Positions 60 to 32,687 of a stretch of 36,980 nt of DNA are shown piece by piece. The notes beneath the pieces were generated by a model. It was not told the DNA's origin. It saw nothing but the letters and a program-made list of their open reading frames with translations, and ran no database searches. The stretch is from Deltaproteobacteria bacterium RIFOXYA12_FULL_61_11 (GTDB taxonomy: Bacteria; Bdellovibrionota_F; JAHFAK01; YA12-FULL-61-11). The position numbers were made by a program, and so were the translations under genes. The stretch is taken from NCBI GenBank assembly GCA_001799195.1, contig MGSU01000191.1, forward strand, positions 1 to 36,980. Direction: 5' to 3'. Position 1 is the stretch's first letter, and every line of letters starts with the position of its first letter.

Positions 60-108
60 GGTCCGGGTGGTCCTCCTCCTTATCCAAGCGTACTCTTTCC
101 GTATCCAT

Positions 109-245
109 ACAGTCTTGGGATGGATTGAAGGTTGTTCTTCACCACGTTGGGGTGGCACCGACGGGGGTCCCCCGCCACGCGCAAGGATGAGCATGGTGGG
201 GGTGAGAGGTGACAGGACCCCTTACCCTACCACCAAGACTGAAGG
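109..245 (+). repeat. intergenic inverted-repeat-bounded element, copy 1
   Basis: Copy 1 of a three-member family. The left end carries CAGTCTTGG at 110-118 and the right end CCAAGACTGAAGG at 233-245, an imperfect terminal inverted repeat. The inner core (about 149-202) is almost identical to the cores of the copies near 14.93 and 32.51 kb. It contains CCCCCGCCA and TGGTGGGGG arms enclosing a loop with GCAAGGATGAG. It lies upstream of the PAP2 gene. There is no coding potential shared with the other copies, so a structured non-coding element or non-autonomous mobile element is the better reading. Confidence 0.85.
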
Positions 246-336
246 CATTCCTCTTTCCAGACCTTCGGGGGTGTACGTCGTCGCGTGACGTGCTATGCTC
301 GGGCCGCTTCCATGCAGCCGAGCGAGTCCATCAATA

Positions 337-14917: not shown

Positions 14918-14929
14918 TCACCTTGTATT

Positions 14930-15122
14930 CCTTCAGTCTTGGAGTGAATTGCAGGTTATTTATCACCACCTTGGGGTGGCGCCGACGGGGGACCCCCACC
15001 ACGCGCAAGCATGAGCATGGTGGGGGCGACCGCAAGGATGCGGACCTCCATGCGCCGCGCAGGATGCAGCGGCGTCGGTGTGAGAGGCGACAGGACCCCT
15101 TACCCCAACCCAAGACTGAAGG
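14930..15122 (+). repeat. intergenic inverted-repeat-bounded element, copy 2 (with 52-bp insert)
   Basis: The ends CCTTCAGTCTTGG (14930-14942) and CCAAGACTGAAGG (15110-15122) form a perfect 13-bp inverted repeat. The core matches copies 1 and 3, but with CCCCCACCA instead of CCCCCGCCA, which turns a G-U pair with TGGTGGGGG into A-U. The loop GGA has become GCA. A unique 52-base insert at 15027-15078 adds two hairpins: CCGCA-AGGA-TGCGG (15030-15043) and one at 15053-15074 with GGA at its tip. The element lies between rsmD and the PilZ-like gene. Confidence 0.9.
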
Positions 15123-15227
15123 GACATTACCCTGTTGTTTCCCATTGACCTGGACCAGGCCCGGGGACATCATGGGAGGTCGTCGCCGAAGGTCGGCCCC
15201 GATCGTTCCGGTCCCAGGGAGGAGCGC

Positions 15228-32482: not shown

Positions 32483-32508
32483 CGAGCGAAGCCTTTGTCG
32501 TGTATAAG

Positions 32509-32642
32509 TTCAGTCTTGGGGGGATTGCTGATTGTTCCTGTAACCCCGTAGGGGTGGCGCCGACGGGGGACCCCCGCCACGCGCAAGGATGAGCATGGTG
32601 GGGGTGTGAGGCGACAGGACCCCTCGCCCCCCCAAGACTGAA
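32509..32642 (+). repeat. intergenic inverted-repeat-bounded element, copy 3
   Basis: The best-preserved copy. TTCAGTCTTGGGGGG at the left end and CCCCCCAAGACTGAA at the right form a perfect 15-bp terminal inverted repeat. The interior holds an ACCCC-GTA-GGGGT hairpin (32543-32555), then the shared core with CCCCCGCCA and TGGTGGGGG arms and the GCAAGGATGAG loop, then GCGACAGGACCCC. It lies between the minus-strand alr and thermonuclease-like genes, with its core in plus orientation, that is antisense to both neighbours. Confidence 0.92.
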
Positions 32643-32687
32643 TGGTTACTTTGTCGTCGTCCCCGCGAACTCGGGTGGAGCCCCGGC

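Follow-up and report, generated by a model that had tools for sequence, protein, structure and literature searches.

The window analysed here is a stretch of 36,980 nucleotides, contig C191 of a draft genome of 4,640,824 bases (342 contigs, 87% complete). It contains three near-identical repeats, and the question they raise is whether these are copies of a MITE-like mobile element, REP-like palindromes, or members of a family of structured RNAs. The original prediction offered all three readings and placed the repeats at about 109-245, 14930-15122 and 32509-32642. All are present, all on the + strand of the window, and each extends beyond the predicted limits, to 101-250, 14925 to about 15127 and 32502-32649. 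The features are as follows.

93..100, no strand: left target-site duplication (TSD) of copy 1, CTCTTTCC
101..250, + strand: copy 1, complete element; core variant CACC/GGTG
149..221, + strand: structured core of copy 1
251..258, no strand: right TSD of copy 1, CTCTTTCC
14925..15127, + strand: copy 2, 203 bp long and carrying one module; approximate at the right end, duplication lost
15026..15079, + strand: module B of copy 2, which adds two hairpins whose loops are CAAGGATG and CAGGATG
32494..32501, no strand: left TSD of copy 3, TTTGTCGT
32502..32649, + strand: copy 3, complete 148-bp element without module; ends GTATAAGTTCAGTCTTGG / CCAAGACTGAATGGTTAC, plus TSD
32551..32623, + strand: structured core of copy 3, GGGGTGGCGCC...GGCGACAGGACCCC, supported by the A1 and A3 alignments, the consensus fold and counts of pairs
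32650..32657, no strand: right TSD of copy 3, TTTGTCGT

Exact 8-bp direct repeats flank copies 1 and 3 and are absent at copy 2. The extra length of copy 2 is due to a 54-bp insert that carries its two additional hairpins. The common ends originally described are correct in part: the terminal inverted repeats (TIRs) are real, but the left end of copy 1 is TACAGTCTTGG and not TTCAGTCTTGG. Copy 1 is upstream of a PAP2-type gene, copy 2 has a Cons_hypoth95 gene on one side and a short ORF on the other, and copy 3 is bordered by genes for an alanine racemase and an SNase-like protein and is antisense to the two. The flanks of the copies are unrelated to one another, and the repeats are therefore not a segmental duplication.

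The family comprises about 92-100 copies in the 4.64-Mb draft genome of this deep-branching bacterium. A 78-base core query finds at least 41 places, and a covariance model (R1), built from an alignment (A1) of 44 elements, finds 92 at E<1e-3. Copy 3 scores 166 bits against the covariance model. Many elements stop at contig ends (C126, C166, C167, C170, C236, C336 and others), and the copy number is therefore a lower bound; the element probably breaks the draft assembly as well. One other genome of the same class, searched with R1, contains no copy.

The ends of the element are GTAWNCCTTCAG, often continuing TCTTGG(G), and its length ranges from 148 to 256 bp, with TIRs visible in the aligned copies. 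There are at least three end subfamilies, which have TTCAGTCTTGG, TTCAGAG or TTCAGTGAAG after GTAWN. With fixed ends, an exact 8-bp repeat is found at 12/62 elements and 7-8 matches at 20/62, compared with about 0.3 for re-paired flanks; among the exact repeats two extend to 9 bp and none to 10. When the ends of all subfamilies are allowed, 21 of 76 elements, with three end subfamilies represented, have a TIR together with a TSD matching at 7-8 of 8 positions, compared with 0-2 in controls with randomly re-paired flanks. This excess and the number of places found by R1 rule out chance occurrence. The proposal of a MITE-like repeat is thus upheld by TIRs, 8-bp target duplications, about 100 copies and the lack of a transposase inside. 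A small ORF inside the element is ruled out, as modules of 53 and 54 nt break the frame. At one locus (L004:16-335) two elements of different end subfamilies lie nearly head to tail, the second beginning right after the target duplication of the first.

IS66 elements start with GTAAGCG and have 8-bp duplications (PMC11946415), and their inverted repeats are described in PMC11946415 and PMC12888890. The ends found here start with GTAA or GTAT, with no GCG. IS66-family MITEs (PMC11946415, PMC12888890) resemble the element in having GTAA at the ends and 8-bp duplications, but they differ from it in the remainder of the inverted repeat, and an IS66 bearing the ends of the element was not found. 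The one clear IS66 transposase of the genome, on contig C91, is without these ends and is ruled out as the partner; among IS66-type transposases, the family covered in the draft genome, no autonomous partner with matching ends was found. We infer that a DDE-type transposase acts in trans on the ends in this genome.

Within the element, a core of about 73 nt is more conserved than the ends. Its consensus fold (RNAalifold) contains the pairings GGGGU:ACCCC, CGCC:GGCG (helix P2) and CCCCC(G/A)CCA:UGGUGGGGG (helix P3), the last with an apical CA-AGNA-UG. The core also has an internal loop G-R / R-C-A-G-G and an apical part GCGCA...GAGCA. P2 is CGCC/GGCG in one group of copies (44/44) and CACC/GGUG in the other (18/18), never mixed (62/62). 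The two halves of P2 are coupled at r2=1.00 and other common core polymorphisms reach at most 0.46, which indicates that the pair has been kept while the surrounding variants were reshuffled. Among 49 distinct cores from two lineages, P3 is paired in 424/441 cells, against a shuffle mean of 387, and has double changes in 5/9 pairs; 0/2000 shuffles reach either the paired count or the double changes. P3 includes 28 G-U cells and no A-C cells, and the + strand is therefore the folded strand.

The original prediction also allowed an alternative fold around the hairpin, which is borne out only in part. GGGGU/ACCCC and CGCC/GGCG do pair there, but GGGGGNCCCCC (e.g. window positions 32565-32575) is a separately conserved palindrome with a variable centre, which cannot form a hairpin alone. 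No Rfam 15 family is above the gathering threshold, and a lax search of copy 2 is empty too. At the sequence level, co-variation, the wobble asymmetry and conservation of the core in other lineages all point towards the proposed family of structured RNAs.

Constraint on the core is also apparent from the substitutions among copies. Counted as singleton changes per cell, variation amounts to 0.0044 in the core, 0.015-0.017 in the linkers and 0.0205 in the TIRs; this comparison and the next one carry the caveat that copies were partly collected via the core and that gene conversion among cores would push the same way. In old copies, whose duplication has decayed to 4/8 or fewer matches (n=27), singletons are 6/1862 in the core, 15/969 in the linkers (p=7e-4 against the core) and 15/538 in the TIRs (p=2e-6 against the core). 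Old copies retain the core while their ends and linkers decay.

Element lengths cluster at 148, 201 and 255 bp, the increments being inserts of 53-54 bp. Each of these modules consists of two hairpins, and there are two main module sites: site A lies within the apical stem, following GCCACG, and site B, occupied in window copy 2, follows GGTGGGG. The stems of module A are unlike those of module B. The first loop reads C[ANGGAN]G and has GGA in 41 of the 42 A/B modules; AGGA is present in the second loop of all 42. Module and core variants are common to different end subfamilies. A module nested inside the hairpin of another module, and a third site between GGTGGCG and CCGACG, were seen by eye (L116 at about 1519-1775, L118 from 1495 to the contig end, L120 and L121), suggesting growth hairpin by hairpin.

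The module loops bear on the possibility that transposition has spread a decoy or binding target for CsrA. Both C[ANGGAN]G and CAGGA match the CsrA sites RUACARGGAUGU and CAGGA(U/A/C)G (PMC7652899), and the genome has one csrA (L087:882-1656), near a flagellar flgL-like gene. Such a role is highly improbable because the universal hairpin is without GGA in about half of the copies; it has AGNA, with G in only 21/44. Furthermore, the majority of copies have no module, hence no series of GGA loops, the universal CAGGA sits in a bulge and not in a hairpin loop, and csrA adjoins fliW, which reportedly shows an anti-correlation with the CsrB-type circuit (PMC7652899).

Every copy had been predicted to be intergenic, and none of 77 copies in this genome overlaps coding sequence as defined by a home-made gene caller. 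Flanking genes are divergent at 35 copies, codirectional at 31 (21 sense, 10 antisense) and convergent at 1, compared with 21, 38 and 8.3 expected from element-free intergenic DNA of 20 contigs and 693 kb (p=2e-4); for convergent gaps alone, 1/67 copies against 8.3 expected gives p=0.0025. The typical copy has a stop codon no more than tens of bases away and precedes a start codon by about 75-130 bp. The proteins encoded downstream of ten copies have no function in common. This context fits survival outside genes and promoters with some preference for gene-upstream DNA, and regulation is not proven by it.

The same data can be read as those of a regulatory RNA, acting in cis on neighbour genes as a leader, terminator or processing site, or acting in trans. 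The location of 76/77 copies outside convergent gaps, most of them 75-130 bp before a start codon, the departure from intergenic DNA, the retention of the core in old copies and the + strand asymmetry of the fold are all consistent with such a role. We regard it as quite unlikely, since the sense bias of codirectional copies is weak (21/31, p=0.07), the downstream proteins lack a common function, no U-run follows the core, and copies in other genomes occur inside coding sequences in both orientations.

When run over 386 genomes, R1 has matches in its own genome and in G287 only. G287 represents a second phylum-level lineage and has about 27 copies, with the same frame, a different apical loop and flanks of 71% GC; the one other genome of its phylum that was searched has no match. 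A model derived from G287 (R2), run over 385 genomes, adds G132 and G133, whose loci are 36-43% GC and which have at least 9 and at least 7 copies, and weaker single matches in G270, G086 and G367. The shared frame is GGGUGRCGC...GCGRCAGGACCC, and nearly all members retain the GR/RCAGG internal loop; the purine pair of this loop in 40 foreign copies is G/A in 32, A/G in 7 and G/T in 1. The apical GCGC...GAGCA is common to G133, G287 and the source genome, and GGGGGNCCCCC becomes GGAGGNCCTCC in G287, still a palindrome. Five foreign members were folded, with z-scores of -3.2 to -7.3; four have the same 2x5 loop and L173 has another fold.

Direct repeats or a target duplication were looked for around the foreign copies and none were found. 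Four foreign copies, found in both orientations, occupy open frames of conserved protein genes in-frame (L230, L234 and L242 of G132 and L231 of G270, around 1516-1606). The host genes encode a UvrD-type helicase, a GAF-domain protein with the copy inside the domain, a glycosyltransferase with a C-terminal copy, and cysteinyl-tRNA synthetase (CysS) with the copy between the catalytic and DALR domains; the copies are read through as low-complexity peptides rich in Gly, Ala, Pro and Ser. In G287, at 71% GC, base composition by itself keeps frames open across most elements, and neither an intergenic nor an intragenic position is claimed.

Several other matches were rejected. An exact 22-mer hairpin, CCACGCGCAAGGATGAGCATGG, in Hydrocarboniphaga effusa (L088:3740-4290) is a single copy in a different pairing surround, the sole match in the set of genome contigs searched, with about 0.1 chance matches expected, and is probably a coincidence; judged by eye, its surroundings resemble an integron cassette without a protein. 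Viral matches to an 18-mer are apparently coding sequence, in which the 18-mer reads RKDEH, and are not the element. Viral matches of other patterns, and searches of phages and plasmids, contain no element.

The foreign members help to decide whether the element is an ordinary local MITE, probably of IS66 type, with a core uniform through recency and gene conversion and a foreign likeness due to horizontal spread. GTAA-type ends and 8-bp duplications fit IS66 (PMC11946415), and variants shared between end subfamilies imply sequence exchange. However, most stem positions are different in the foreign cores while loops and pairing are retained, which recent transfer would not give, and in old copies the linkers and TIRs decay and the core does not. 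This origin is therefore unlikely. The lack of duplications in foreign genomes would suit a REP/REPIN-like hairpin of single-stranded DNA moved by a Y1 (HUH) transposase, as would the imperfect palindrome, the conserved bulges, the favoured strand and the mostly intergenic position. We nevertheless consider this origin very unlikely: the Y1-type motif [MLIV]P[ND]HxH is absent from 1.28 Mb of DNA, part of the genomes, there is no GTAG or CGTC tag (PMC3733652), and 8-bp duplications are present in the source genome. The REP-like palindrome of the original prediction finds no support, as the size does not fit, a REP tag is lacking and the duplication is 8 bp long.

The three repeats are probably a non-autonomous element whose core characterises an old family of selfish palindromic elements, here captured between IS-type ends. 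A DDE-type transposase would cut and join the ends GTAWNCCTTCAG, leaving the 8-bp duplications that are observed. The + strand of the core, for which there is co-variation, would fold between these ends, and hairpin pairs of 53-54 bp have been added at fixed sites in the core. The spread of the core itself may depend on some factor that recognises its folded + strand, either RNA or single-stranded DNA, and in this genome the core would have been captured between IS-type ends. Copies would survive where they are least harmful, outside genes and promoters, with selfish spread the presumed reason for the pattern. Against this explanation, the avoidance of convergent gaps exceeds simple harm avoidance. 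The mobility of the foreign copies is suggested by copy number, patchy occurrence and insertion in genes, because no TSD is found there. More tentatively, and with considerable doubt, the core could define a mobile family across several phyla, whose spread needs the folded + strand (RNA or single-stranded DNA) to be recognised by an enzyme, with the loop code GR/RCAGG, and which enters genes in-frame and can be captured by DDE transposons.

Small palindromic elements that lack a transposase pose two long-standing questions: by what route they spread, and what keeps their hairpins conserved. In the present case a single hairpin frame is traceable across lineages; in one lineage it is accompanied by transposon ends and target duplications, in others it has neither, and it also occurs in-frame in housekeeping genes. 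Genes that co-occur with the hairpin can therefore be sought, and RNA and DNA can be compared as candidate substrates. The element further represents an RNA-like family that is absent from Rfam.

A search of the open-access literature for the core string found no description, and the likenesses to known systems are partial. REP/REPIN-RAYT sequences (PMC3733652, PMC3116915) are likewise high-copy extragenic hairpins, but they are 20-40 bp long with a GTAG or CGTC tag and a Y1 transposase (PMC3733652), none of which is seen here. ERIC and Correia elements (PMC2229807, PMC10969869) are structured intergenic MITEs able to affect mRNA when transcribed; they have TA termini and other duplications, and no core in common with the present element. 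The Rickettsia palindromic elements (PMC10969869) are also palindromic, without transposase, present in several copies and inserted in-frame in unrelated protein genes, the last as observed for copies in G132 and G270. They are reported from one genus, however, whereas the present source genome has no copy in a gene and has 8-bp duplications. BOX of Streptococcus pneumoniae (PMC3049150) is MITE-like and intergenic, with comparable copy number, terminal repeats, a predicted RNA fold and variable internal modules. The likeness is in plan only: the sequence is presumably unrelated, the modules of the present element each comprise two hairpins and occupy two or three fixed positions, and its core frame recurs in several phylum-level lineages. 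As judged from Rfam 15 and the open-access literature, the object is a MITE, which is a known kind, and its new part is the conserved cross-lineage core.
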